From contig NZ_JASJOU010000001.1 of NCBI RefSeq assembly GCF_030068605.1, positions 1,550,001 through 1,614,000 of the forward strand: a stretch of DNA of 64,000 nucleotides, in the 5' to 3' direction. Below the pieces are notes generated by a model. It was not told the origin of the DNA, made no database searches, and worked only from the letters and a program-made list of their open reading frames with translations. This document shows, piece by piece, positions 20,174-63,839 of the stretch (positions are counted from its first letter, which is position 1; every line of letters starts with the position of its first letter). A program made the position numbers and the translations under genes. This stretch comes from Xanthocytophaga agilis (GTDB taxonomy: Bacteria; Bacteroidota; Bacteroidia; Cytophagales; 172606-1).

Positions 20174-20181
20174 TATCTTTG
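20174..20181 (+). promoter_or_regulatory. Bacteroidota-type -7 promoter element of the LRR/MoxR array
   Basis: TATCTTTG is a perfect match to the Bacteroidota -7 consensus TAnnTTTG. It lies 20 bases before the ATG of the first gene of the array. A clear -33 TTTG at the usual spacing was not found, so the promoter is called from the -7 element and position only. Everything between the hairpin at 19837 and here (about 300 bases) shows no gene. Confidence 0.5.
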
Positions 20182-20201: not shown

Positions 20202-22157
20202 ATGACTGCATTTTTAGATCTCAAAAAGCTTTTACTAAAATATCCTCAGTGTATAGGAGCCAAAATAGAAACAAAGGCGTATGGCCATGCTACATTTCTA
20301 CTCAGATTAGTACTTCCGCATTCCATCGATCAGTCACTAACCGAGGAGCTTCTCAGTACAGAGACCATTACCGATATAGATGAAAAGATACTTGAAGCGA
20401 TTCTGACCCAAACTCATTGGGAAGTGATGTCCTTTAAACTGGAACAGAGAAATGAATTTGTCCAACAGCTACTGGACAACCTGTACCAGTTTAAAAATTT
20501 ACGAAAACTTGAATACAAACATCCATTTCAAATGCCTGATGGCAAAGTTTCATTGCAAGGACTCTCCTTTCTGGAAATAGCAAATCTAAATGAGGTAGAA
20601 GTACAGGTTAAAGAACCTCTCCCCACTATTCATACGTTTATACTAGGTAGTTTTCAAAAGACAGATGTAACACCCATTCTGGAGGTTTTAAACCCTGACA
20701 CACTGCAAAAACTGGAGTTACGGCATGCAGGTCTTACGACCTTACCTACAAACCTGCAACGATTCAAAAAATTGACCTATCTGGGACTGACAGGAAACAA
20801 AATTTCGGATCTCACAGGTATAAGCGCTCACACTAATCTGAAATTGCTTAACCTGAATAATAATCAACTGATTGATATCCCCTACGAGTTATTTTCACTA
20901 ACTCAACTGGAAGATCTGTTACTGAATCAGAATCCGCTCACGACAGATACAGAAATCAAAGGCAAAACAGTATTGCTTCGATTAATCCATTGGTGTGATG
21001 AAAATCAGTTCCCGAAATCATTGCGTGAATTCTTTAGTGCATTACTACAGGAAAAAGGCAAACCTACTGTAGAGGATGATATGACAGGATTACTTTGGGC
21101 ACTAACATCTGATATTGAGCTGTTGAGAAGAAAAGCGACTAACCAACTAGCCTCTATACTCTCCGATTCACTGAATCAGCACTTTACCAGTGAAAAAGAT
21201 ATAATTTCTATAGTAGGCAAGGTCAAAGGCTGGTCAACAAAAGACATCTTGTCTCAATTGAAGAAACACAAGATAAAAGCAAGTGATAAGCTAAGTGATA
21301 GCACTACCTATGTATGTGTAGGAGATGCCCTTACAGCCGAACAAGTTAAAACCATTCTATCAAAAAATTTCCGGCTGATTATGCCTCAGCATCTGAAAGA
21401 ATTTCTGGAGAAACTGGAAACACCGTATCTGAAAGAATCCGGAGAGGAAATGCAGGAAAATCTAAACCGTCTGATTGTGAGTGATGAAGAAAGTACAGTC
21501 AAACTGGCGGCACAGATGATGATGGCCGGGGGAATCCCGGATGGCCTTTTTTATCAGATCTTGTGGTTAGGAATACGCAAAGGAACCTTCCATTGGAAGT
21601 ATTTCCGACCTTTACTGGAAAAATACGCAACAGCACAGCAATACGACTTTATTAAGAAATATCGTCAGAAAGAATTTGATGTAGTTATAAACAAGCTACT
21701 TGAATCCAGTGAGTTTGATATCCAACTGGTTTTAAAAGCTGGCTTACAGGTACTATATACACCTATAGAGTTTCGGAATCGGATCTATCCTCCCGGACGC
21801 ACCAACTACTATGCATTCCGGAATGTGTTCAAGAAAAGCCTTCGATTAGGCGGTGACGCAGCTCAGCACCTGTATCAGAAGATGACAGACGGAAATACAC
21901 TGGATTTGCTTTTCTCAAGTGCTACAGCTAAAGATCAGTTTCAATTTGCCAAAGAATTACAGGAGTTCAAGCAGGTTGAAAAAATAATTTGCGCCTATAC
22001 CTGTGCCATTATGCCCAGCAATGCCAAGCTATTGAAGAAATTGAATCAGCTCAAAAAACTTGAGCTATATAAACCCTCCCATGTAACTGTAGACAAGCAA
22101 CAACTGGCAGAGCTATTTCCGGCTATAGAAGTTACCTTAAAAAATTACGAGAACTAG
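20202..22157 (+). CDS. Leucine-rich-repeat protein with BRCT-like segment, copy 1
   Basis: A 651-residue cytoplasmic protein without signal or membrane segment. Residues 1-165 form an N-terminal domain shared with copy 2. Residues 168-246 hold three to four leucine-rich repeats (LQKLELRHAGLTTLP, LTYLGLTGNKISDL, LKLLNLNNNQLIDIP). Residues 333-405 resemble a BRCT fold: a start like VGKVKGWSTKDILSQLKKH, a core TTYVCVGDALT and a final helix QHLKEFLEKL. Residues 407-460 form a conserved helical block, ENLNRLIVSDEESTVKLAAQ followed by GGIP. First gene of a seven-gene same-strand array with a MoxR ATPase. It is probably a recognition or adaptor subunit. That role is inferred. Confidence 0.85.
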   Translation: MTAFLDLKKLLLKYPQCIGAKIETKAYGHATFLLRLVLPHSIDQSLTEELLSTETITDIDEKILEAILTQTHWEVMSFKLEQRNEFVQQLLDNLYQFKNLRKLEYKHPFQMPDGKVSLQGLSFLEIANLNEVEVQVKEPLPTIHTFILGSFQKTDVTPILEVLNPDTLQKLELRHAGLTTLPTNLQRFKKLTYLGLTGNKISDLTGISAHTNLKLLNLNNNQLIDIPYELFSLTQLEDLLLNQNPLTTDTEIKGKTVLLRLIHWCDENQFPKSLREFFSALLQEKGKPTVEDDMTGLLWALTSDIELLRRKATNQLASILSDSLNQHFTSEKDIISIVGKVKGWSTKDILSQLKKHKIKASDKLSDSTTYVCVGDALTAEQVKTILSKNFRLIMPQHLKEFLEKLETPYLKESGEEMQENLNRLIVSDEESTVKLAAQMMMAGGIPDGLFYQILWLGIRKGTFHWKYFRPLLEKYATAQQYDFIKKYRQKEFDVVINKLLESSEFDIQLVLKAGLQVLYTPIEFRNRIYPPGRTNYYAFRNVFKKSLRLGGDAAQHLYQKMTDGNTLDLLFSSATAKDQFQFAKELQEFKQVEKIICAYTCAIMPSNAKLLKKLNQLKKLELYKPSHVTVDKQQLAELFPAIEVTLKNYEN

Positions 22158-22199
22158 TAATATCATTGAAAAGCTGTTAACTGGAATCTATTGTCGACA

Positions 22200-22895
22200 A
22201 TGAAACCATATTATTATCTGATTCTATGCCTTTTATTGGGATGCAAAAATGAGAAGAAAGAAACTTCTTTGAAACCACCTGTTACTTCCAATGTAGACAC
22301 ATCCCTCTCCTTTAATGAAATGCTACATATACCCCAACATTCTTCTGAAGCCTATGGAGAGTATGAATCCTTTCTACGATGTAAAAAATTACTACAAATC
22401 TCTGACTCTACCTCCTTTAAGAATGATTATGAGATTAGATTGTATTTGTTTGGCAGTTTTCAAGGACTTTATTGCTATAAATACACTCTTCATAACAATG
22501 AATGGAAAGGAGAACGTATCATTTTACATTATTCTACCACAAGGCAATTAGAAAGAGAACCTGTATCTCCCAAAGAAGGATGGAAAACTTTTATTCAAAA
22601 TGCAATAAATAATGGGTTATTAAATATACCGACAAGAGAAGAAATGAATCAGGAAATAGTCCAACTAGGTAAATTGTACCCAGACGTCAATCTACAGATC
22701 ATAGATGGAGGATCTGTGATGATTGAAACTATTACAAAAGATCATTATGAATTGAGACTTTATAATAATCAACTATCTCTAGCCGACGATATGAAACTTT
22801 ATGATAATCCACGACCTCTGCCTGCTGGTGTTTCGAAACCAACGGTACTAAAGAAAATAAATACACTAATAAAGTCTTTGGTTATTTATCCTTGA
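22200..22895 (+). CDS. Lipoprotein of unknown function inside the LRR/MoxR array
   Basis: A 231-residue protein whose N-terminus is a lipoprotein signal with lipobox LLLGC, so the mature form is lipid-anchored. I chose the ATG at 22200. A TTG three codons upstream is in frame but would place charged context unfavourably. The mature part is predicted alpha/beta (YEIRLYLFGSFQGLYCYKY ... HYELRLYNNQLSLADD) and matches no family I know. It starts 42 bases after LRR copy 1 and ends 72 bases before copy 2, so it is probably co-transcribed. It is the only predicted exported product of the array, which may mean it is a passenger. Confidence 0.7.
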   Translation: MKPYYYLILCLLLGCKNEKKETSLKPPVTSNVDTSLSFNEMLHIPQHSSEAYGEYESFLRCKKLLQISDSTSFKNDYEIRLYLFGSFQGLYCYKYTLHNNEWKGERIILHYSTTRQLEREPVSPKEGWKTFIQNAINNGLLNIPTREEMNQEIVQLGKLYPDVNLQIIDGGSVMIETITKDHYELRLYNNQLSLADDMKLYDNPRPLPAGVSKPTVLKKINTLIKSLVIYP

Positions 22896-22967
22896 AAAGA
22901 AAAACATTCTTTATATAAGCTAACAATACACTTCATACTCAGAAGACCAGCTATCTAACAACAGTTT

Positions 22968-24878
22968 ATGAATACTTTTTCGTCCTTAACAGAGGCATTT
23001 CAGGCCTATCCTACTTGCATTGGCATTGATTTCACAGAGTTTAGTACCTGGTTCAAGTTTGAGCTACTATTACCATCTGGAGATGCCTACACCAAACAAG
23101 AGATAAAAATTTCAAACCCACAACCCGATTCGCTCATTCAGGAAATTTTAAGTCAGCCCCACTGGCAGGTATTAGAAATTGGAGCCTTTGAAAACAAAGG
23201 TGTCTGGATGCAGAAAGTTGTCAGTCAGCTACACAAATTTACTCAACTGCAAAAACTATGGATTCGCTATGGCTATACACGCTATCATGCGGAAGAGCCT
23301 CTTTCTGTATCCCTGAATGGCTTTCCTCATTTAACAACCATACACTTTCAAGGGTGTACCATTTCTCTGTCAGAACCCTTATCTCAGGCAACAGCCTTAT
23401 ATATGGAGTTAACATCTTTCGAAGAAATACACGATATCCTTCCTTATCTCAATCCAGAAAAAGTTACACGGCTCTCCTTTTCAGAAGCAAATCTGACAAC
23501 TCTGCCAGAACAGCTACAATCATTCTCACAGCTTAAATCGCTTGACTTATCCCGTAATAACCTCACAACAATTCCATCCTGGCTAAGCTCTCTTAAAGAG
23601 TTAACAAATATCTCTTTGTATGCGAATCCAATTCTGAAAAAAACAGAATTAAAGGAGGCCATGATTACCAAACTGATTGCTCAGTGTAATAAACAAAACA
23701 CATCAACACATCTGCGGGGGTTGTATCTAAATCTGTTACAAAACCAACCAGATGAATCTGCGACAACAGAAGATCTGCTACCTGCTCTGAGCATGGATAT
23801 TGAGTTACTGAACCGAAAAGCCATGCAGAAATTATTGAAGAAGGTAGTCAATCCACTAAAGGAGAAAGGCACCCCATCTCAACATATTGCCCTGATTGGG
23901 AAGTTTAAAGGAATATCTGTTCCAGAGACTATTGAGCAACTAAAACAACATGGTATCGAAGCCACAGAAAAACGTACTCCAAGCACAACCACACTTTGCA
24001 TAGGCGAAAGCCTGACAGCCAAACAAGTAACAGAAGTAGCTAAGCATCAGTTACCACTGGCTTTGCCACAGCATTTACGTGATTTTTTACAACAACTTGA
24101 TCGACCTTATCTGAAAGAATCTGATGCGGAGACCCAGGAAAACTTATTTCGCCTGTTACACAGTCAGGAAGAAAGTAACATCAAAATCGCAACAGAGATT
24201 ATGCTGAGTGGAGGCATACCTGAGGATATATTCTATATGATTTTGCTATTGAGCTTCCTAAAAACAGGAGGTTATAGAGCTGGTTTTAAGAAGCTTCTTG
24301 AAAAATATACAACACCCGAACAACATGATTTCATTGTCAAACAACAGAAGGCAGGATTTTACAAAACTATTGACTTACTATTTGACAAACCATCTGAACT
24401 CTTTGACCTTAACAAGCTTGTAGCAGCAGGATTACGCATATTTGCTATTGAAAACAGCCAGCGGATGAAGTCCTATAATGATGAAGGATTTCTTCGGTCT
24501 TTTCATTACCTCGTCAAACGATGTTTTGTAGCAGGAGGCGAACCAGGCCGACTTGCCATTAAAGCACAGCTAGAAGAAAAAACACTCAATGTCTTGTTTA
24601 CAGATGATAGTTATTTTGGAAAGTTTAAACTGCCCACAGAACTACTGGAATTTACAGACGTTGAACGGATTATCTGTTCTCAGAATGTAATGACAGAGGT
24701 AGCTACCAATCGAAAGACAATTCAGAAAATGTCCAGTCTCAAAGAATTAGTGCTATACCATTACTCGGTAGATATCACCACTTCTTATGGAAAAGAGTAT
24801 TATGATGGATGGCAGAAGGGAGTTGCCAAACTGAAAGATACCTTACCCCATCTTCAGATTACGGTACAAACTTATTAA
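22968..24878 (+). CDS. Leucine-rich-repeat protein with BRCT-like segment, copy 2
   Basis: A 636-residue paralogue of copy 1 with the same order of parts. The N-terminal domain aligns by eye from the first residues (FSSLTEAFQAYPTCIGIDF against FLDLKKLLLKYPQCIGAKI). Leucine-rich repeats lie at about residues 165-222 (LSFSEANLTTLPEQL, LKSLDLSRNNLTTIP). The BRCT-like segment is at about 306-378 (IGKFKGISVPETIEQLKQHG, TTTLCIGESLTAKQV, QHLRDFLQQL), followed by the helical block ENLFRLLHSQEESNIKIATE and GGIP. The C-terminal end again carries the ...VERIICSQNVM... strand pattern. It is nine bases from copy 3, so the two are tightly coupled. Confidence 0.85.
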   Translation: MNTFSSLTEAFQAYPTCIGIDFTEFSTWFKFELLLPSGDAYTKQEIKISNPQPDSLIQEILSQPHWQVLEIGAFENKGVWMQKVVSQLHKFTQLQKLWIRYGYTRYHAEEPLSVSLNGFPHLTTIHFQGCTISLSEPLSQATALYMELTSFEEIHDILPYLNPEKVTRLSFSEANLTTLPEQLQSFSQLKSLDLSRNNLTTIPSWLSSLKELTNISLYANPILKKTELKEAMITKLIAQCNKQNTSTHLRGLYLNLLQNQPDESATTEDLLPALSMDIELLNRKAMQKLLKKVVNPLKEKGTPSQHIALIGKFKGISVPETIEQLKQHGIEATEKRTPSTTTLCIGESLTAKQVTEVAKHQLPLALPQHLRDFLQQLDRPYLKESDAETQENLFRLLHSQEESNIKIATEIMLSGGIPEDIFYMILLLSFLKTGGYRAGFKKLLEKYTTPEQHDFIVKQQKAGFYKTIDLLFDKPSELFDLNKLVAAGLRIFAIENSQRMKSYNDEGFLRSFHYLVKRCFVAGGEPGRLAIKAQLEEKTLNVLFTDDSYFGKFKLPTELLEFTDVERIICSQNVMTEVATNRKTIQKMSSLKELVLYHYSVDITTSYGKEYYDGWQKGVAKLKDTLPHLQITVQTY

Positions 24879-24887
24879 GTACAGGCT

Positions 24888-26834
24888 ATGGCTAATGAAA
24901 TAAAAAACAAAGTATATACTATTGCAGAAGGCCTCCAAGAACCGCAGAAGGTAAAAGCGTTGCTGGTAAAGAATGCCAAAGATATAGTCTTGGTACACAA
25001 GTTTCCTTTTCTTGAACAGTTGCAATGCATTTGGGGAGAGGAAACCATTCGGTGGGATCTGATAAAAGCTGAAATAGTAAGACTACAGTCATTACAAGAG
25101 TTACATCTGGTATACCAACAGGTAGACAATCAGATGATACAGGCTATTCTGGCACTTCAGCAACTGAAAGTCCTTAAACTTGAACTCCGTCAGCAATCCA
25201 GAAAAAAAATAGATGTTAGCTGGCTATCACAAATTGGACAACTGGTCAACCTTACCCATTTGTCTATCAAACGTCATAAGCTAACTGACCTACCGGATTC
25301 TATTCATCAACTGGTAAATCTGAAAAAACTAAGTCTGGCAGGTAACAGGTTCACGAATCTTCCTTTTCAGGCTGAACGCTTTCCAACACTGGAAATAATA
25401 GGATTAGAAGCGAACAAAATTGCTCATTTACCGGATGGTTTCCTGAATTTCAAAAAACTACAGAAGCTAAATCTGGCAGGAAATCCTATAGCTAAAAATC
25501 CTCTGTACAGAGATGGTACTCCTGTAGTTCAGTTTCTGAATAAAATAAAATCACTACCTGCACATCTACCCAACATAGCATGGGCTGTATTTACGGATAA
25601 CACCAGTCAGATAGCCCAGGCCAGCGATCAGGATTTGTGTGCATTATTGAGTATAGAATTAAAGGCATTTCAACAGAAAGTACATATACTACTTAACCAA
25701 CGGTTAACAGATCTCTTTTTGTCAGGTATACAGCCATCTGAAACAAACATCTGTCTGTTAGGGAATTTATTTTTTGGTATGAAACGCCAGGCCTTAATCG
25801 AACGGCTGCAGGCTCAACAGATCACCGTACATACCAAACTACAACCCAATACAACACATCTGGTTGTAGGAGAAAACCTCACACAAAATAATATTAGTAC
25901 CATTTACCAGACTTCCCTACCCTTTGCGACTGCCGAGCACCTGCGCCAATGGCTTGAACAACTGGAACAGCCCTTCCTGAAACAAGCTGATGACTCAATG
26001 GCCGAAAATCTGCGTCGGTTGTTATTCTCTGGCAGTGAAGACAATATTAAGCTGGCATTACAGATGATAGCAACAGGAGGTATCCCCGCTTCTATCTTAT
26101 ACCATGTATTCTGTATGTGTTTTTACAAAATATGGCGCGTCTACAATCCAGCCCCAGACCTGCGAAGAGTATTTGAGCAAACCGGGCCTTTTGAGATGGT
26201 GCAACTGGTAAAAAAACACTGGCAAAAAGAAAATAAACGTTTGGTGGAAATATTTATGCAGGAAGAGGTAATAGACAAAAAGCTATTGTTTGATACAGCT
26301 TTTGAAATGTTCCTGACCAGTGTAGATACTCCACCAGTTTATGATCGTCAGACATTTGATCCAAGTACACAGTATAACGACTGGTGGAAATACTTTTTCA
26401 GAAGTCTAATTATCAAAATTTCATACAAGGCTGATGACCTTGCCGAATATGCATTGGTTCAACTTCAAAAAGAAAATATCTTTCAGCGCATTGCACAACA
26501 TAACATAAGTCTTTTGTATCCCTGGCTGGAAACAAAAGGCAAAATTCAGAAATATGCAGCCAGTGCACTTCTTCAGGATCAAACACTGGATATACGAGAC
26601 AGTTGGTTCAGTTTACTGTCTTTACCCATTTATACACCTGTAGAAAGACTGGTAGTATATGAGCATACGATGAGTGGAATGAACAAACAAATTATCGAAC
26701 ATTTAAGTAAAATAGAAAACTTAAAGACTATTGAAGTACATAAAAATGACATTAACTGGAACATAGATAACGTTCTGGCTGATTGGCAACACTACGCACC
26801 TCATGTTCAAATTTTACGAGTACATAGAACTTAA
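24888..26834 (+). CDS. Leucine-rich-repeat protein with BRCT-like segment, copy 3
   Basis: A 648-residue paralogue with the most classical motifs of the set. Leucine-rich repeats occupy about residues 72-205 (LTHLSIKRHKLTDLPDSI, LKKLSLAGNRFTNLP, LEIIGLEANKIAHLPDGF, LQKLNLAGNP). The BRCT-like segment at about 286-361 contains TTHLVVGENLT, which is the family's usual central strand, and keeps a tryptophan in its last helix (EHLRQWLEQL). The conserved helical block ENLRRLLFSGSEDNIKLALQ and GGIP follow. The N-terminus is shorter and differs from copies 1 and 2. It precedes the metallopeptidase/VWA gene by 48 bases. Confidence 0.87.
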   Translation: MANEIKNKVYTIAEGLQEPQKVKALLVKNAKDIVLVHKFPFLEQLQCIWGEETIRWDLIKAEIVRLQSLQELHLVYQQVDNQMIQAILALQQLKVLKLELRQQSRKKIDVSWLSQIGQLVNLTHLSIKRHKLTDLPDSIHQLVNLKKLSLAGNRFTNLPFQAERFPTLEIIGLEANKIAHLPDGFLNFKKLQKLNLAGNPIAKNPLYRDGTPVVQFLNKIKSLPAHLPNIAWAVFTDNTSQIAQASDQDLCALLSIELKAFQQKVHILLNQRLTDLFLSGIQPSETNICLLGNLFFGMKRQALIERLQAQQITVHTKLQPNTTHLVVGENLTQNNISTIYQTSLPFATAEHLRQWLEQLEQPFLKQADDSMAENLRRLLFSGSEDNIKLALQMIATGGIPASILYHVFCMCFYKIWRVYNPAPDLRRVFEQTGPFEMVQLVKKHWQKENKRLVEIFMQEEVIDKKLLFDTAFEMFLTSVDTPPVYDRQTFDPSTQYNDWWKYFFRSLIIKISYKADDLAEYALVQLQKENIFQRIAQHNISLLYPWLETKGKIQKYAASALLQDQTLDIRDSWFSLLSLPIYTPVERLVVYEHTMSGMNKQIIEHLSKIENLKTIEVHKNDINWNIDNVLADWQHYAPHVQILRVHRT

Positions 26835-26882
26835 TAATCAAACCACAACACAGCTAGTAGTTAAAAAGATACCATTGTCAGT

Positions 26883-28247
26883 ATGCAAAATATTTTAGAT
26901 GAAGTAGCACGGGTAGGTGTTGAATTTATTCTCAACGAACCGTATTATGCCCACTTTCTGTCAAGTCTGAACAAACAGATTGATAACTCATTTGGAACCA
27001 TGGCCGTTGGAGTGAACGGAGATACCTATGTATTGTATGTAAATCCAACATTCTGGACAGAAACCTTAACAAGTAAAGAATTACGTCTGGGTCTGGTAAA
27101 ACATGAAGTACTGCACCTGGTATTCAAACACGTTACCCGGCTTGAAAAACACCACATCCCCTTCCTGTATAATGTTGCCGCAGACCTGGTGGTAAATCAA
27201 TACATTACACGGAGCCATCTGCCACAAACGGGTATGTTCCTTGATACCTTCCCGGATGTTGACCTCGCCCCCTTTGAATCAGTAGATTATTACTATGATA
27301 AACTGAAAAAAGTGTGGGACACCAAAGGTTGTTGTAACAGCAAGTGTGAAGTACCATCTCTAAAAAAAGGAAAGGGTAAGTCTTCAGGAATGGATAATAG
27401 TAGCACTACTGGCGGAAATGGAAATGCGAGTGGAAATGATGCTGAAAATTCGGAGGAGCCTTCAGACTCTTCAGAAGACAATACAGAAAGGCCAACCATA
27501 AATACCTATAACCTGCTGGAGTCAATAGGCAAAAACTGGACAGAAGAGATGTTGCGTCATAAGGGATGGGATGCCTTAGCCCGCCTCAACCCAGTGGAAA
27601 AAAGTATCTATGACATGCAGCTTGATAACCTGATCCGTATATCTGTTGAACGGGCTGGTCCGAAAAGTATTGGAAAGCTTCCTGCACATCTACAGCGTTA
27701 TCTTGACCTTTTTATGATCCGTAAAGTGCCTCAGCTTAACTGGCGTAAGGCGTTGCGTATTTTTTCAGAAAGTAGCCGGAAGACGTATATTAAAAACACC
27801 TTGAAAAAACCATCCAAACGGTATGGAACTGTTCCAGGCATCAAGGTAAAACGCAAGCAGAAAGTATTACTGGCGATTGATACATCGGGTAGTATTGGAA
27901 ATGAAGAGCTAAGCACCTTTTTCAGCGAAATTTACCATATCTGGCGGTCTGGGGCAGAGGTCCGTATTGTGGAATGTGACGCTGCTATCGGCAATATATA
28001 CGAATATAGAGGTATTGTACCTAAAACGGTTACAGGAGGTGGCGGAACCAGCTTTGAACCTCCATTGCTTTATGCAAATCAGGAATACCTGCCTGACATG
28101 ATGATCTACTTTACAGATGGGTATGGGTCTGTTCCTAAAATGCATCTCCGGTTCCCGTTGTTATGGATTATCACCAAAGAGGGTATAGAACAAAGCAGCG
28201 ACACCTTCCAGCAACTGCCAGGCAGACGTGTAAAACTCAGAGAATAA
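26883..28247 (+). CDS. Metallopeptidase-like / VWA-like protein (DUF2201 type)
   Basis: A 454-residue protein in two parts joined by a low-complexity Gly/Ser/Glu linker at about residues 160-210. The N-terminal part has the zinc-site motif HEVLHLVFKH (HExxH, His74 and His78) and the flanking NVAADLVVNQY of the DUF2201 metallopeptidase-like domain. The C-terminal part is VWA-like with an intact MIDAS, DTSGS, near residue 333 and FTDGYG near residue 410. VWA proteins of this kind pair with MoxR AAA+ ATPases as in RavA-ViaA, and the MoxR gene lies two genes downstream. Whether it cleaves protein or only binds is not known. Confidence 0.9.
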   Translation: MQNILDEVARVGVEFILNEPYYAHFLSSLNKQIDNSFGTMAVGVNGDTYVLYVNPTFWTETLTSKELRLGLVKHEVLHLVFKHVTRLEKHHIPFLYNVAADLVVNQYITRSHLPQTGMFLDTFPDVDLAPFESVDYYYDKLKKVWDTKGCCNSKCEVPSLKKGKGKSSGMDNSSTTGGNGNASGNDAENSEEPSDSSEDNTERPTINTYNLLESIGKNWTEEMLRHKGWDALARLNPVEKSIYDMQLDNLIRISVERAGPKSIGKLPAHLQRYLDLFMIRKVPQLNWRKALRIFSESSRKTYIKNTLKKPSKRYGTVPGIKVKRKQKVLLAIDTSGSIGNEELSTFFSEIYHIWRSGAEVRIVECDAAIGNIYEYRGIVPKTVTGGGGTSFEPPLLYANQEYLPDMMIYFTDGYGSVPKMHLRFPLLWIITKEGIEQSSDTFQQLPGRRVKLRE

Positions 28248-28302
28248 CTTTTCATTGTAACAAAGAACTAAACCATTTTTCTAACTCACCAGTACACAGG
28301 CT

Positions 28303-30216
28303 ATGAAATCCATATCCCTTAGAACCTATGATAATCCTCAAAAAATAACCTTTGAAGAATTTAATCAGGAAAAGTATACACAGCTTACATATAATATCTC
28401 GTCCTATATTGATACTAAGTTTAAAGATTCGGATAAATGGGTGACATTACCAGAAATACTACAGGCAAATCCTCAGTTAGAATCTCTTGATATTTGGGGT
28501 TATAAGTCCCCAGACCTTGAGATTTCATTCAAGATAATGCCTAATCTCAAATCACTATCGTTTCGTTTTGATTCTTCACTTGTTCTTCCCAAAGATTGGG
28601 AAAATGCGACAAAACTGGAAAAACTTCAGTTATCTATACCTTTTGAAACAAAGGGAGTTGACAAATTTCCTGAGCAACTACAATACCTTCCCAATCTAAC
28701 CAGTCTGCAACCTCCCCAAACAGACAATTATGAATGGTGGAGTTCATTGGCGAAACTACCAGCACTGAAAATGCTAAATTTACAGTCCTATACAACTCTA
28801 CCCTTCTCTCTTGCCCGTATGCTGGAATTACTACATACATTTCCAGTATTGGAAGAAATAATAAACTTTTATCCCAAAAAGAGTGAGCCACTCACAGAAG
28901 TACTCTTAGGTCTGGATCGGTTCAAACATGTCGAACTCATATCCATGGTCTTTAAGGATATAACCAGTATCCCGTTATTCTTCAGTAAATTTAAGCAGGT
29001 AAGCTTTTTCAATTATCGGCATGTAGGTTATAAAGAAGTCAATAAATTTCGCGAGAAATACGCTACCCAACCACTATCCGACAGACACAGAGAGCTATTG
29101 TTTTTATGTAGCGTCAAAAGCTGGAATCGAGTCAAAACCTATACAACCAATCACTTACTCGAAAAACACAAGTCTACCGTTCCTGTTGTATTAATGGGTT
29201 ATGAAAAGCTGGCTTCTGCCAATAAAACCACATTAAAAACCAAACTTAAAGACACACAAATATCACTGGAAGAGAAGTCAGGAGGAGAACCTATCTATAT
29301 ACTGCATACAAAAAGTGATTGGAATGTATTGGAGCAAGTTATTCTGGAGGACAAAAGTTTTATTGTGGAAGAACACCTGACTGAGTTTTTGCATTATCTG
29401 GAAAAACCCTATTTGCTTGAAAATGATAATGAAGAACTCAACCAGAGTATCATCCGGCTACTGTGTTCCGGTGATGATGAAAATGTAAACCTGGCCTTTC
29501 AAATGGTGGAAAGTGGTGGCGCTCCTGTAGCTGTACAAAGTATGATTGCAGCCATTGCCATGACACATAAAGATACCAAAATCCGGAAGAGAGCCCGTCA
29601 GGTATATCAGAAAGTGGGTAGTGCAGCATTTGTACCTCTTATGGGTAAACCAAGTTATAAGGAGACAGACTTCAATCTACGTATCAGCACACACGAAAAT
29701 ATAAGCCGGACTGACTTTTTGCTGATGGTAGAATACCAGCACCATCTCAACCGTCACTATGGAAAAAACACAGGTAGTTTGTCTATAGACTGGCGACGTC
29801 TGGGACTAAAGGAAATTACAGAAAACATCCTTTTATTTCCTAACCTGAAAACACTCCACCTAAGTTCAAACCCCGAACTGGATCTTGAAAAGGTATTTTC
29901 CTTACTGGTACAGATCCCTACAATCGAGAGGCTATACCTTAACGGATGTAAGGGTACTCTTCCTGCCTCTCTTAGTCAGTTACAGTCATTGGTTGAACTA
30001 GATGTTTCCAGTAACTCTATGGAAGATTTTAGCATTCTTGCACAATTACCCAACCTGAAACGACTGACAATGAAAGGATGCAAAGTTAAAAACTGGGACT
30101 GGCTCCAACAATGTCCAAAACTGGAATGGATATGTGTGAATAGTGCGGACCAACAAAAAATACCACATCAGAGTGAACAAATGTATGGAGGAGATTTATT
30201 CCTGAAAATCCGGTAA
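28303..30216 (+). CDS. Divergent leucine-rich-repeat protein with BRCT-like segment, copy 4
   Basis: A 637-residue member of the same set with a different layout. Degenerate leucine-rich repeats cover residues 50-250. The BRCT-like segment is at about 292-367 (VVLMGYEKLASANKTTLKTK, YILHTKSDW, EHLTEFLHYL). The conserved helical block follows (SIIRLLCSGDDENVNLAFQM and GGAP). A second run of regular leucine-rich repeats closes the protein at about 497-626 (LKTLHLSSNPELDLEK, LVELDVSSNSMEDFS, LKRLTMKGCKVKNWD). It sits between the VWA-like and MoxR genes, 55 and 63 bases away, so it may be the subunit closest to the ATPase. That is inference. Confidence 0.83.
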   Translation: MKSISLRTYDNPQKITFEEFNQEKYTQLTYNISSYIDTKFKDSDKWVTLPEILQANPQLESLDIWGYKSPDLEISFKIMPNLKSLSFRFDSSLVLPKDWENATKLEKLQLSIPFETKGVDKFPEQLQYLPNLTSLQPPQTDNYEWWSSLAKLPALKMLNLQSYTTLPFSLARMLELLHTFPVLEEIINFYPKKSEPLTEVLLGLDRFKHVELISMVFKDITSIPLFFSKFKQVSFFNYRHVGYKEVNKFREKYATQPLSDRHRELLFLCSVKSWNRVKTYTTNHLLEKHKSTVPVVLMGYEKLASANKTTLKTKLKDTQISLEEKSGGEPIYILHTKSDWNVLEQVILEDKSFIVEEHLTEFLHYLEKPYLLENDNEELNQSIIRLLCSGDDENVNLAFQMVESGGAPVAVQSMIAAIAMTHKDTKIRKRARQVYQKVGSAAFVPLMGKPSYKETDFNLRISTHENISRTDFLLMVEYQHHLNRHYGKNTGSLSIDWRRLGLKEITENILLFPNLKTLHLSSNPELDLEKVFSLLVQIPTIERLYLNGCKGTLPASLSQLQSLVELDVSSNSMEDFSILAQLPNLKRLTMKGCKVKNWDWLQQCPKLEWICVNSADQQKIPHQSEQMYGGDLFLKIR

Positions 30217-30279
30217 CATATAATCCAATAATAAAATTTAAAAACTTAAAACAATCATTAGTTATAATTCAAACGCAGC

Positions 30280-31416
30280 ATGGCTAAAAACGACAATCCC
30301 AACAGTCAGAATTTTAATTACATCACCTACGGCTCCAAATGTAACAGTCTAGAGCTGGAAGGATTTCTGGAACATGTACTCAAGTATACATTTATCACAC
30401 CACCCAAACCCAATGAACCGCCAACACCTGTCTGTATCTGGGGACGGCATGGAGTTGGTAAAACACAGATTGTCCGAAATGTAGCAGATAAGCTAGGAGC
30501 TAATTTTGTCTATATAGCTCCTGCTCAGTTTGAAGAAATGGGTGACCTGGTAGGGATGCCTAAAATAGATGAAAACGGACAGCAAACCCATTTTATTCCT
30601 CCGGACTGGGTACCACGTACTGAAGGACCTGGAATATTCCTGATAGATGACGTAAACCGTGCCGACGACAGGATTTTGCGTGGTATCATGCAGCTGTTAC
30701 AAAACTATGAACTGGTAAGCTGGAAAATGCCTCCTAAGTGGCATATTGTCCTTACCGCTAACCCTGATGGGGGTGATTATTCTGTAACGTCTATGGATGA
30801 CGCCGTACTTACACGGATGTTGCACATCACTTTGCAGTTTGAAGTACAAAGCTGGGCACGTTGGGCAGAAGCAGCCAAAATCGACCCTCGGGGTATTAAC
30901 TTTATCCTAACGTATCCTGAAATGGTAACAGGAAACCGGACGACCCCACGGTCACTGGTACAGTTTTTCAGAGAAACCGAAAAAATAGAGGATCTGTCAG
31001 AAAATTTACCTTTGGTAAAAATGCTGGCGGATGCCTCACTGGACGAAGAAACAGCTGCTGCCTTTCTGAGCTTTGTGAAGCTACAACTTAACCAGTTGAT
31101 TAGTCCGGAAGAAATCATCAATGCCAAAAAATTTGATGGTATCGAAAAGCAGTTACGAGGACTTGTAGAACAAAAAACCAAACGACTGGATATCCTGTCT
31201 GTAATTTCTACCCGTCTTATCAACTATCTTATTGTTAACAATATCAGTATAGACAAGGCCCAAACGGATAATCTGAAGCTATTCCTGTTGCTGGAATTTA
31301 TCCCGAATGATATGCGCCTATTTATGGCTCAGGAGTTGGTTAATAGTAAAAATACATCTCTTAAAAAGCTACTAGCTATTCCTGAAATAGGTAAACTATT
31401 ATTGTCAAAAATGTAA
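30280..31416 (+). CDS. MoxR-family AAA+ ATPase
   Basis: A 378-residue AAA+ protein. Walker A is GRHGVGKTQ at about residue 57, Walker B is GIFLIDDVNRAD near residue 118, and sensor 1 is VLTANPDGGDYSVTSMDDAV near residue 160 with an arginine-rich TRML following. The C-terminal 150 residues form the helical lid. MoxR ATPases work with VWA-domain proteins as hexameric remodelling machines that mature or dismantle protein complexes. The VWA-like partner is encoded at 26883. It is the last gene of the array and is followed by a long hairpin. Confidence 0.92.
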   Translation: MAKNDNPNSQNFNYITYGSKCNSLELEGFLEHVLKYTFITPPKPNEPPTPVCIWGRHGVGKTQIVRNVADKLGANFVYIAPAQFEEMGDLVGMPKIDENGQQTHFIPPDWVPRTEGPGIFLIDDVNRADDRILRGIMQLLQNYELVSWKMPPKWHIVLTANPDGGDYSVTSMDDAVLTRMLHITLQFEVQSWARWAEAAKIDPRGINFILTYPEMVTGNRTTPRSLVQFFRETEKIEDLSENLPLVKMLADASLDEETAAAFLSFVKLQLNQLISPEEIINAKKFDGIEKQLRGLVEQKTKRLDILSVISTRLINYLIVNNISIDKAQTDNLKLFLLLEFIPNDMRLFMAQELVNSKNTSLKKLLAIPEIGKLLLSKM

Positions 31417-31440: not shown

Positions 31441-31519
31441 CATATAAAATCGGTGTTGAATTCTTTCGTGTATCAGTAAACTAACTATATATAAAAGGAT
31501 TCAATGCTGATTTTATATG
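31441..31519 (+). terminator. Long imperfect hairpin closing the LRR/MoxR array
   Basis: The arms 31441-31465 and 31495-31519 pair over 25 positions with about three mismatches, around a 29-base loop. They start 25 bases after the stop of the MoxR gene. There is no clean T-run, so termination or transcript protection are both possible. The remainder of the 31417-31899 gap shows no gene. Confidence 0.6.
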
Positions 31520-33234: not shown

Positions 33235-34332
33235 TTATACAAGAGTAAAAGAAGATATAGCCATTTCCACTCCATTAATAATCACAGATACTTGATGCAT
33301 TCCAGCATAAAATACCCTTGTGGTAATAGGTTTGAAGGAGTGGCGTTTGACCACAGTAATTGATTCTCCAGCTTTATATTCTCTTTCACTGATTTTAAAA
33401 ACTTTTCTATTCAGACTTCCATTTGCTTTTAGATAGTAAATACCATATTCTAAGCGGACTATCTGGCTTTGTGTATGCGTATTAGTAACCACCATAGCAA
33501 ATTCCAGTGTATCGCCCATTTTTACTTTCGTCGTACGAATTTCAAAACCCTTTACTGAAATGAAACTACTCTGTAAGCCGTAATACGATAATACCTCTGT
33601 ATGCCCCTGTTTTAGTAAAGTTCTGCATCCATGCTTGATAATAGCATCTGTCTCTTTGCTGTGGCCTTTCCACTTATGTGCAATCTCCAGTACCACAGCC
33701 GGATTATCTTTTGCAATATCATTCAAATTATTAGCTACACTACGTCTTACCCATTCGGACGGGTCATTTTTCAGATTCTCGAGTAATGGCAAGATAGGCA
33801 AAGGATCTTTTTTCAGGGATGGAATAGCAATTCCCCAGGGCAAACGCGGACGACTCCCCTCACTGGCTAGCCGCCGCACTTTATGATTGGGATGTAAAGA
33901 CCACTTAGTCATTTCGTGAATCATATCAGTGCCATATTTCAGTAAAAAGGGACGTACAGCAAATTCACAACTCACAAATTGGGTCAGCCTTTCCAGCACA
34001 GGTACTGCTACAGCCAGATCCTCCAATCCATAGAGAGCTACATATTCTGGTAAAAACACAAAAGCTAATCCATCTTCTCCCCATCCCTGCTCCAACAAAG
34101 CATCTACAGTTTTTAACAACAGTGGTGCAGCTTCTGGAAAAGCTGCAGGCAAAAAATGATGAAACACCTTTGTTGTATGTAACATCCGCTCCTTCCATTC
34201 CATGTTTGTGAAGGATTCTGTCAAGATCATCTTAACAAAAGTATCCTTCTCAAAGAATGGAATGACAGGAGTCACAACATCAGCAAAACGATTATAAAAA
34301 GCAGGTGTATAAATATCTTTGATCAGACTCAT
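33235..34332 (-). CDS. DNA alkylation repair (AlkD-like) HEAT-repeat protein
   Basis: A 365-residue protein. Residues 1-240 are helical HEAT-like repeats with the AlkD family core MTKWSLHPNHKVRRLASEG, RPRLPWG and NDPSEWVRRSVANNLNDIAK, the last holding the conserved Trp/Arg pair near residue 190. AlkD-type glycosylases excise alkylated purines. Residues 255-365 are an added beta-rich domain (FEIRTTKVKMGDTLEFAMVV ... VFYAGMHQVSVIINGVEM), seen in some bacterial members and of unknown role. It is convergent with the glycosyltransferase gene, 78 bases apart. Confidence 0.87.
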   Translation of the reverse strand: MSLIKDIYTPAFYNRFADVVTPVIPFFEKDTFVKMILTESFTNMEWKERMLHTTKVFHHFLPAAFPEAAPLLLKTVDALLEQGWGEDGLAFVFLPEYVALYGLEDLAVAVPVLERLTQFVSCEFAVRPFLLKYGTDMIHEMTKWSLHPNHKVRRLASEGSRPRLPWGIAIPSLKKDPLPILPLLENLKNDPSEWVRRSVANNLNDIAKDNPAVVLEIAHKWKGHSKETDAIIKHGCRTLLKQGHTEVLSYYGLQSSFISVKGFEIRTTKVKMGDTLEFAMVVTNTHTQSQIVRLEYGIYYLKANGSLNRKVFKISEREYKAGESITVVKRHSFKPITTRVFYAGMHQVSVIINGVEMAISSFTLV

Positions 34333-43706: not shown

Positions 43707-43751
43707 ATACAGACAGGATTCGTCCTTAAATTGTGGTTAGGAGTTTTAAAG

Positions 43752-43789
43752 CTAGCCACTACACTTTTGCAAAAGAGTGTAGTGGCTAG
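43752..43789. terminator. Hairpin between convergent genes
   Basis: A 13-base-pair perfect stem (CTAGCCACTACAC with GTGTAGTGGCTAG) extends to about 18 pairs with a two-base bulge. It lies between the convergent genes ending at 43706 and 43815 and may terminate both. Confidence 0.7.
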
Positions 43790-43814
43790 TTTCAGTTTCA
43801 GAGAATGATTTAAC

Positions 43815-44396
43815 TTATGGTTGACATTGGTCAATATAGAAAGCTTTGACCCTTAGCTCTGCGAAGGATTCTTGAGGAGGGTTTGACAGAAAGGCAAAGT
43901 TAAATTTAGCGACATCTGACAAATCCAGTGTGGTTTTGCCACCCTTAAATTCTGAGAAATAGATTGTTCGGGTTGTTGGCTTTTTACTAGCAGGCAGAAC
44001 CACATGATTCTGTACTCCTCCATGCACCCCTGTCTGTCGTAGTTGTAATACTACTTCCTGATTGGCCTGATAAGTTACCCGAATAAATTTACTTTTGCTA
44101 AGATCTACTTTTCGGGCTTCTTCGCCAGGCAATGTCTTTGGATCAATAGGAAAAGATACTTCGCCATATCCCTTTACATTAAATTTCACATGCGCAACTA
44201 CCTTTCCTTTATCTTTTACCAATCCATCCTGAGTGTTCAGAGGAGCCAACTGTTCTGTTTTCTCATCGTGACCGGTAATCCATTGAGAAAATCCATTGAG
44301 GGATAAAGGTGACTGAGTTTGTGCACTAACAGAAACAGAACAAGTATAAATTGCTATAGTAATGCCTGTAAAGAAGAATTTTGTATGTCTGAACAT
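43815..44396 (-). CDS. Secreted protein, possible carbohydrate-binding jelly roll
   Basis: A 193-residue exported protein with a signal peptide ending near SVSAQ. The mature part is predicted all-beta (VAHVKFNVKGYGEVSFPIDP, KFIRVTYQANQEVVLQLRQT, TTRTIYFSEFKGGKTTLDLS, KFNFAFLSNPPQESFAELRV), which resembles galactose-binding-like or CIA30-type jelly rolls. I do not recognise a specific family. It follows the GH130-like lipoprotein gene by 61 bases on the same strand, so it may assist that enzyme with glycan binding. Confidence 0.6.
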   Translation of the reverse strand: MFRHTKFFFTGITIAIYTCSVSVSAQTQSPLSLNGFSQWITGHDEKTEQLAPLNTQDGLVKDKGKVVAHVKFNVKGYGEVSFPIDPKTLPGEEARKVDLSKSKFIRVTYQANQEVVLQLRQTGVHGGVQNHVVLPASKKPTTRTIYFSEFKGGKTTLDLSDVAKFNFAFLSNPPQESFAELRVKAFYIDQCQP

Positions 44397-52590: not shown

Positions 52591-53331
52591 CAGTAACAAA
52601 CCACTTACAACCTAAATTCGTATTTTTATATTTGTATCAGACTTTATGTCTGAGGATATATCTGCTTGACTTACAATAAATACAAAGATACTACATTCAC
52701 ACCTCCTTTGTAAAGTCATAATTTACTCATTACCATACACATATGCTTTCCTGTCAGATTTTTGAAACAAAAACATTTTATACCTTAAAATACTGATAAA
52801 TAAGCAGATATATACTTTTTTTGAACAAAAGAGAATAGTCGAAATTCAAAAAAGACTGCATCGTACTGCATTCTGACAACATATCTTACATTCCCAATTT
52901 TATATTGCTATGCTTTTACACTTTGTAACAGGTCACCTTCGCTAAAAAATCCAATCGGCAAAACTTGCATAAAGAACTGATTGTCTTACAAGTAGTAGCA
53001 GGTCTCATTATGTTTTTTCCAACAAACAGTCAATTAGTTTTCTTCAACTGATCAATCATCTTACTATTATCAAAAATAAAAGACAGGTTCGCTGCAAAGA
53101 TCTTTTTGTCAGATTGAATGAGCTAGGAGATTAATATAAAAAGAAGACAGATTTTTTTATTAGAATTAGATACTTGATCGCTAATTTTTTATCCTATAAA
53201 TACTATGTTTATCCATATTAAATTTATAAACATTAATTTTTTATCGAATAATCATAAGCAAACAGTTTTTATAAATTAAATGGAAGACCTTATCTCTGAA
53301 ATATGTTAATTTTTAGTCTGACAGCAAATAT

Positions 53332-53381
53332 AGAATGACAGTGTCGAAAATCGGTATACCGATTTTCGACACTGTCATTCT
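53332..53381. repeat. Perfect 50-base palindrome with no spacer
   Basis: The halves 53332-53356 and 53357-53381 are exact reverse complements centred on GGTATACC. The next bases outward (53331 and 53382) no longer pair. It lies in the gene-free gap, 185 bases beyond the stop of the candidate immunity gene. There is no T-run, so a simple terminator is not the obvious reading. A protein-binding or recombination site, or an element end, is possible. Confidence 0.9.
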
Positions 53382-53566
53382 CAAATAATTCTACACTAAG
53401 TGGAACATTTTATTAAGCTCCAAAATCTTCTTTTAAACTTTTTGATTACCTAATATCCTCTTTATAACTTTTTGGATAGATCAAATCATAAATATCTCTT
53501 TGAGCCTTTAGATAACTAATGATACGTGTAACAATACCATCCATTATACTATAAACTACGTTACAA

Positions 53567-63441: not shown

Positions 63442-63839
63442 ATAAGCTGGCTTTACAATTTAGCTTACACCCTCAGATGAGTATTAGTTAAGTGAATACA
63501 CACTAAAGCAATCCTTCAAAGAAAAGAAATAAAACAGACCCCTCATGCAGCATGAGGGGTCTGTTTTAGAAACCATTCATTACAGAAACTCCTGTCTACA
63601 TATACCTTCTTGCCATTTTTATTTATATGATACCAACTTCCACGCAATGACATAAGTCATTCAAAATGTTGCTTTTATACAATTCTTATTAAGAATATAG
63701 TTTTTATCTTTATTCTTATCTGTAGTCTACATCCCAAACTATGCCTTCGATGATAGTGGAGTCAAGTGAATCATTCAGCTTACAAATTCTTAATCAGAAA
63801 AATAGCCATTGTTGCTCTCATTGAAACAACCACCTTCCT
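63442..63839. other. Intergenic region before the last gene
   Basis: This 398-base stretch carries the hairpin at 63531-63567 and the promoter region of the response regulator. No other gene or repeat was recognised. Confidence 0.45.
63531..63567. terminator. Strong bidirectional hairpin
   Basis: The arms 63531-63548 and 63550-63567 pair perfectly over 18 bases around one central base, with AAAA on one side and TTTT on the other. It can terminate transcription from either strand and marks the right limit of the RHS/umu region. Confidence 0.8.

Follow-up and report, generated by a model that had tools for sequence, protein, structure and literature searches.

A Xanthocytophaga agilis operon for a putative ATP-driven protein remodeller with multiple recognition subunits

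In the MoxR-vWA ternary conflict systems, a MoxR ATPase and a protein with a von Willebrand factor A (VWA) domain are joined by a third component, for which the accessible part of the original survey names VMAP, iSTAND, FtsH and beta-propeller proteins (Kaur et al. 2020, PMC7159879) and that of its 2021 sequel iSTAND2 and TERNS3 (PMC8195603). In the NorQ-NorD pair, as far as the accessible text describes it, a finger of the VWA domain reaches into the pore of the MoxR ring, and ATP is spent on remodelling a linker of the VWA protein (PMC13036017). Here we describe an operon located at positions 20202-31416 of a 64,000-nucleotide stretch of the Xanthocytophaga agilis genome (9.77 Mb), hereafter the window (contig NZ_JASJOU010000001.1, positions 1,550,001 to 1,614,000 of the forward strand). 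Seven consecutive plus-strand genes separated by 9-72 bases had been predicted there, and this is borne out: seven open reading frames (ORFs), all open, follow each other with gaps of 33, 72, 9, 48, 55 and 63 bases. Judged from its sequence, the operon seems to specify a machine that uses ATP to remodel, and perhaps to cut, proteins and that has more than one recognition arm. Besides a putative lipoprotein, it encodes a DUF2201 protein (a predicted zincin followed by a VWA domain), a MoxR AAA+ ATPase and four leucine-rich-repeat (LRR) proteins with BRCT-like segments.

With NorQ-NorD and RavA-ViaA, as these are described in the accessible parts of the reports, the operon would share a MoxR ring with a VWA partner (PMC13036017, PMC3893208, PMC10585395). 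With the ternary systems, as portrayed in the accessible text of the two surveys, it shares MoxR, VWA and a distinctive third component, the occurrence in several copies per genome and sensor-like modules. There, however, the VWA protein typically carries C-terminal effectors, whereas the VWA domain of the operon ends its protein (it aligns to residue 454 of 454, with the Pfam domain at 329-433, leaving no C-terminal effector domain) and the zincin stands before it. The third component differs as well, being VMAP, an inactive STAND or another named module in the ternary systems and LRR or LRR-BRCT here; searched with Pfam and NCBIfam rather than with dedicated profiles, the seven proteins gave no match to VMAP, iSTAND or another listed third component at E <=1. 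To our knowledge, NorQ-NorD and RavA-ViaA have neither a peptidase domain nor an LRR partner, and they serve few fixed clients. A pair with a nucleic-acid-type adaptor is presumably represented by yeh/mol of E. coli, where MoxR (YehL) and VWA (YehP) are accompanied by WGR proteins, but its VWA is of another type and the E. coli control genome gave no match to PF09967. The original prediction that no described system has such a composition agrees with the literature searched, mostly non-subscription papers, in which we found no description of LRR, DUF2201-VWA and MoxR together; the ternary systems are the nearest kind.

The DUF2201 protein (26883-28247, plus strand, 454 aa) combines matches to PF13203 (54.1 bits, cut-off 23.2) and PF09967 (58.5 bits, cut-off 26.4) in one polypeptide. 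Its predicted N-terminal zincin shows the motif HEVLH at residues 74-78, followed by H83 and D101, and its C-terminal VWA domain has a metal ion-dependent adhesion site (MIDAS) made of D333xSxS, T389 and D412. Among 61 relatives, H74, H78, H83, D101, D333, S335, S337 and D412 are kept in every one, while E75 and T389 are each kept in 58. The predicted structure reaches pLDDT values of 91-98 over residues 1-140 and places HExxH in a helix (65-80); the fold-search matches shown cover the VWA domain only. Comparison of the zincin-VWA profile with solved structures gave a single match, interferon gamma (E 0.18), and thus nothing useful. The MoxR ATPase (30280-31416, plus strand, 378 aa) matches AAA_5 with 43 bits (cut-off 22) and carries an intact Walker A (GRHGVGKT) and Walker B (LIDD), the residues of which (GxxGxGKT and DD) are kept in all 40 sequences compared. 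DUF2201 proteins are present in many bacteria, phages and plasmids, and we know of no role assigned to them; the papers found to mention DUF2201 are, by their titles, about other topics.

The LRR proteins, all on the plus strand, are LRR1 (20202-22157, 651 aa), LRR2 (22968-24878, 636 aa), LRR3 (24888-26834, 648 aa) and LRR4 (28303-30216, 637 aa). Each has LRRs above the Pfam cut-offs and the four are paralogous (33% identity and E 1e-93 between LRR1 and LRR2, 24% and E 7e-13 between LRR3 and LRR4). LRR1 and LRR2 continue with a BRCT-like segment and a helical tail, LRR4 with a divergent BRCT-like core; in LRR3 the LRRs span residues 65-205 approximately and BRCT about 285-360, again followed by a helical tail. 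Pfam BRCT scores 21.5 bits in LRR3, just over its cut-off of 21.3; LRR1 shows a weak match (E 0.14), and for LRR2 and LRR4 none is listed. PF00533 is matched by 10 of 28 relatives at E 0.01. A profile of the shared segment, built from 34 sequences with all four paralogues included, finds its best matches in the BRCT domains of solved DNA ligases (LigA BRCT 1l7b, E 3e-8), and the AlphaFold model of LRR3 has the BRCT order of strands and helices in this segment. Profile and model thus uphold the predicted BRCT-like segment and do not point to an unrelated fold; the fold searches with LRR3 were filled by LRR matches and did not reach the BRCT part, no BRCT chain being among the matches shown. NCBIfam matches pointing to LRR effectors or internalins were far below cut-offs, merely reflect the LRRs and were rejected as an identity.

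In a tree of the core domain, LRR1, LRR2 and LRR3 fall into one group with relatives from locus L061 and from their own genome, and LRR4 into another with partners from Chitinophaga, genome G053 and Saprospiraceae (L086). We read LRR1-3, on the basis of this tree, as a probable genus-level expansion. The own genome also contains a second copy of the arrangement, with VWA, MoxR and a 966-aa LRR-core protein, plus five further core genes. An extra LRR2-like gene, spread over two overlapping frames in a metagenome-assembled genome (L061:4241-6221), is either a decayed copy or a sequencing error; its two pieces were treated separately. At L034:15035-19499, tandem small LRR genes share an N-terminal motif (ENIIRLLLSGQ-like) resembling the tail of the LRR-BRCT core.

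Next, 241 genomes of the order were searched with the core and VWA profiles. Core matches were listed to E 1.8e-6, weaker genomes (G449 among them) being scored as core-less, and were counted by hand in the 75 matching genomes, with BRCT-only (DNA-ligase-like) or tail-only matches dropped. Two weak, partial VWA matches (G530, E 2e-23; G613, E 7e-13) were left out and a VWA split into two frames of 297 and 122 aa (G540) was scored as present. A strong VWA was found in 24 of the 241 genomes and a full BRCT core in 19, and 18 have both; three quarters of the strong-VWA genomes (18 of 24) thus have the full core, compared with a single genome among the rest (Fisher P near 4e-21, a value inflated by relatedness and nearly the same whether the own genome, G000, is counted within the 241 or as an extra one). 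In one genus (g33), nine genomes have core matches, the full core is limited to two of them (G463 and G589), and these two are also the ones with the VWA protein. The core gene adjoins VWA in 8 of the 18 genomes and lies on another contig or far away in the other 10, so that adjacency alone does not explain the link; many of the assemblies are fragmented and another contig does not always mean real separation, which is clear for G020 and G444.

The pairing of MoxR with VWA is strict. A search for the cognate MoxR covered 36 genomes and found it in 22 of 23 with a strong VWA, in 12 of these 22 on a different contig from VWA, and in none of 13 others; the sole strong-VWA genome without it (G002) has a completeness of 72%, and the contig breaks off 1.5 kb after VWA. 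Distances of VWA correlate with those of MoxR (r 0.73, 38 loci) and of the core (r 0.65, 19 loci), neither value being reached in any of 2000 shuffles, although shared ancestry was not removed. A search for MoxR in 395 genomes drawn evenly from the phylum gave 3 with a match, too sparse for use. The predicted partnership of LRR/BRCT proteins, DUF2201-VWA and MoxR is, at the level of sequence comparison, well supported, as they co-occur even when they are not neighbours and are neighbours in many genera; the independent occurrence that would speak against it was looked for in the 241 genomes and not found as a rule.

By analogy with NorQ-NorD, a MoxR hexamer would hold the DUF2201 protein by its VWA domain, and the pull of the hexamer would open or position the zincin. 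ATP use would in this way remodel the DUF2201 protein, or a substrate captured by it, and gate the attached protease. The LRR(-BRCT) proteins would serve as adaptors choosing the target, with LRR1-3 as a range of specificities that grew within the genus and LRR4 as the member with wider relationships. The role of such a machine most likely lies in conflict with foreign genetic elements or in control of nucleic-acid-bound proteins. To the reading as a whole, a MoxR-driven zincin-VWA machine with LRR(-BRCT) adaptors most likely engaged in one of these two roles, we assign a probability of about 0.5.

The family extends far beyond the order. When 84,980 species genomes were scanned by a pattern-based method, 126 relatives of the VWA protein emerged, of which the best 80 loci were kept. 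Where at least 4.5 kb was available on both sides (40 loci), 30 loci have MoxR close by and 22 have an LRR or core protein there. Across all loci, LRR-positive ORFs make up 47 of 437 within 4.5 kb of VWA versus 6 of 385 farther away (P 2e-8), as counted with an LRR profile that misses atypical LRRs. The core adjoins VWA and MoxR in records including Chitinophaga, Flammeovirga, Runella, Saprospiraceae and Cocleimonas. The Actinoplanes record differs in that its core gene is oriented against VWA and that MoxR was not observed. Pfam LRRs are found in further neighbours from Flavobacteriaceae (L101, L110, L121), Synechococcus (L125) and Polynucleobacter (L116), in the last case about 3 kb from MoxR and on the opposite strand.

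Phages also possess such pairs. The VWA protein is matched in 236 of 50,697 phage records, the best phage match covering at most about half of it. In Bacillus phage AR9 (g028-g029) a protein with PF13203 and PF09967 adjoins a MoxR-like AAA gene (MoxR profile E 4e-31), and a second pair, N4 gp25-like, occurs in phage Pollock, where the MoxR match is weak (1e-11). Both resemble the operon in combining an AAA+ gene with a zincin-vWA gene and differ from it in that no LRR or core match was found in their annotated stretches. In the accessible text of papers on N4-like phages (including PMC9503650) we found nothing on an AAA+/zincin-vWA pair. Among the phage and viral loci (L160, L161, L059), the AR9 MoxR-like neighbour stands behind an annotated early promoter, and on an IMG/VR contig the gene of a core-like protein (E 2e-6) is followed directly by those of VWA and MoxR.

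In the tree of 61 VWA sequences, 15 form a separate clade (clade II, 100% ultrafast bootstrap), while the 24 core-positive sequences (19 over the full span) all lie outside it, in clade I, together with the window protein. MoxR precedes VWA in 11 of the 15 clade II loci. Three genomes (L139:741-8679, L134:3177-11173 and L165:6471-14326, the last absent from the tree) share an operon that begins with a reverse transcriptase (RT) gene, continues 8-11 bases behind it with an LRR gene and ends with MoxR and VWA. The RT proteins are 1420-1452 aa long and match RVT_1 with E values of 7.5e-13 (L139), 1.7e-15 (L134) and 1.4e-15 (L165). In the two tested, the best PADLOC score is that of RT_III-A (6e-76 and 1.4e-73), which we take as an indication of retron type III-A. 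A fourth full-length RT, in genome G623 and 93% identical to that of L139, runs up to the border of its contig, and a separate contig from this genome (L138) begins at the LRR gene; for two short RT relatives (G780, G744) the module is missing from the 20 kb read. An Rfam search of two RT loci revealed no retron RNA and two weak whalefall-1 matches, and no relative of the RT turned up when viral sequences were scanned. We found no description of this four-gene operon in the literature searched.

Other partners occur ahead of related gene sets. L121 is the sister of the RT loci, yet its LRR-MoxR-VWA genes follow a SAM-TPR protein of 1404 aa, part of which is Avs2-like (E 3e-12). At L125, a DUF4062-AAA_16-TPR protein is separated by three ORFs from the LRR gene. 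At L120, a WGR protein (61.1 bits, cut-off 22) precedes VWA-MoxR; its repeats look LRR-like by eye and Pfam lists no LRR in it. In clade I, L063 (1792-14240) has MTase_III (E 1e-99) and REase_III (2e-16) genes and genes similar to DndD/PbeC (5e-60) and DndH/HerA (6e-28) directly before VWA, MoxR and a core gene. A conflict role thus finds indirect support in the RT or Avs2-like neighbours of clade II and in the restriction and Dnd-like genes of L063. Such defence-like contexts are few, and adjacency within a defence island carries less weight than the recurrence of the RT operon.

Several observations weigh against a proteolytic adaptor machine acting in conflict. The RT and Avs2-like links belong to clade II and the window to clade I. 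With the PADLOC 2023 models, none of the seven operon proteins gave a match at E <=1 except MoxR with mads_8 (E 0.027), and ten flanking proteins of the window gave none. Among 78 neighbours of clade I operons, a set that leaves out the neighbours of some loci, 113 PADLOC families were matched by single members, and among the 25 listed those traced all come from L063. Comparison with Xanthocytophaga flavus gave dN/dS (nonsynonymous to synonymous substitution) ratios of 0.01-0.21, with no sign of an arms race in this one species pair. As to co-occurrence, the expectation stood for 18 of the 19 full-core genomes and did not hold for six of the 24 strong-VWA genomes, which miss the full core (G036, G449, G472, G532, G549, G557), or for G520, which has the core without VWA or MoxR. 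The phosphate-binding Ser/Thr of BRCT domains precedes the first conserved Gly, and this position holds Ser in only 4 of the 34 sequences. No zincin chain is among the fold-search matches shown for the DUF2201 protein, the zincin domain not having been reached. Finally, HQxxH replaces HExxH in 3 of the 61 VWA proteins (L068, L071, L079); proteolysis is therefore not universal, and the sequences suggest that some family members work without cutting.

These HQxxH variants would fit a dedicated maturation chaperone, in which the pair would supply a metal to a single housekeeping complex or restore its activity, with the LRR proteins as a scaffold for this task. Characterised MoxR-VWA pairs (NorQD, CbbQO, RavA-ViaA) presumably act so. 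We nevertheless consider this explanation unlikely, because the presence of the genes is patchy (24 of 241 genomes, and two of nine listed g33 genomes with core and VWA) and because paralogous LRR proteins encoded in trans, or RT and Avs2-like partners, do not suggest one fixed client.

Somewhat less likely still is repair of DNA-protein crosslinks or DNA ends, with BRCT or WGR adaptors bringing zincin and AAA+ motor to damaged DNA. SPRTN or Wss1 with p97/Cdc48 is a precedent for a protease and AAA+ ATPase at damaged DNA. The closest resemblance of the segment to the BRCT of DNA ligase A, the WGR domain at L120 and the conserved zincin motif would all agree with such a role, but the classical phosphate residue is not conserved and the LRR proteins of several relatives have neither BRCT nor WGR in Pfam. 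That the LRR genes are unrelated neighbours in an LRR-rich genome, where 107 places match LRR3 and where, of the additional LRR-core genes, four are solitary and one is found at a distance of 16 kb from the second VWA copy, is very improbable given the co-occurrence in 241 genomes, the adjacency in distant genera and the correlated VWA-core distances.

The adaptor-machine reading could be widened, more tentatively and with lower probability than the reading itself, to an undescribed immunity chassis. Its AAA+-gated protease would stay the same while the sensor is swapped among LRR-BRCT, WGR-repeat, Avs2-like SAM-TPR and giant retron-type RT proteins, and phages would carry their own version of motor and protease. 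The link of DUF2201 to LRR, BRCT and retron-type RT partners provides a concrete, testable hypothesis for this protein family. If true, a regulated protease with exchangeable recognition subunits would join bacterial conflict biology, its subunits being reminiscent of the LRR adaptors of eukaryotic ubiquitin ligases.

The operon and its surroundings recur in the nearest named relative, X. flavus YF14B1, where the encoded proteins are 95-99% identical except for the putative lipoprotein (LIPO; 22191-22895, plus strand). Synonymous divergence from X. flavus (L060) is 0.06-0.10 in the LRR genes, 0.21 in VWA and 0.17 in MoxR; perhaps the lower values of the LRR genes result from recombination among the paralogues. 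LIPO has no Pfam family and carries LLLGC, which we take to be a lipobox. Its ORF was predicted among the seven genes and is indeed open, but the listed TTG start at 22191 is less likely than the ATG three codons on (22200), and its 234 aa compare with a 165-aa ORF in X. flavus. No ORF of this type was found in a third Xanthocytophaga genome (L053) or in L061; LIPO is an accessory outside the conserved gene set.

The predicted -7-like motif upstream and long hairpin downstream of the operon were both found as described. A motif scan locates TATCTTTG at 20174-20181 on the plus strand, 28 nt before LRR1, and we assume it to represent the Bacteroidota -7 promoter consensus. TAnnTTTG occurs within 100 nt upstream of 5 of 44 window ORFs of at least 100 aa, and since X. 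flavus has almost the same sequence over the 120 nt upstream, conservation of the motif there adds little. Scans for sigma-70 promoters and T-run terminators gave counts about equal to shuffles. Just downstream of the operon, on the opposite strand, a HEAT-repeat protein (33235-34332) has a DNA-alkylation-repair match below cut-off (E 0.008). The hairpin (31441-31519, no strand assigned) folds with -36.0 kcal/mol; its X. flavus counterpart has different stem bases, keeps the pairing and folds with -34.8 kcal/mol. As the stem sequence changed between the two species while the energy stayed nearly equal, the hairpin is probably a working transcript end. It is one of five long hairpins in the window, three others with near-perfect stems lying at 43745-43838, 53329-53384 and 63528-63570.

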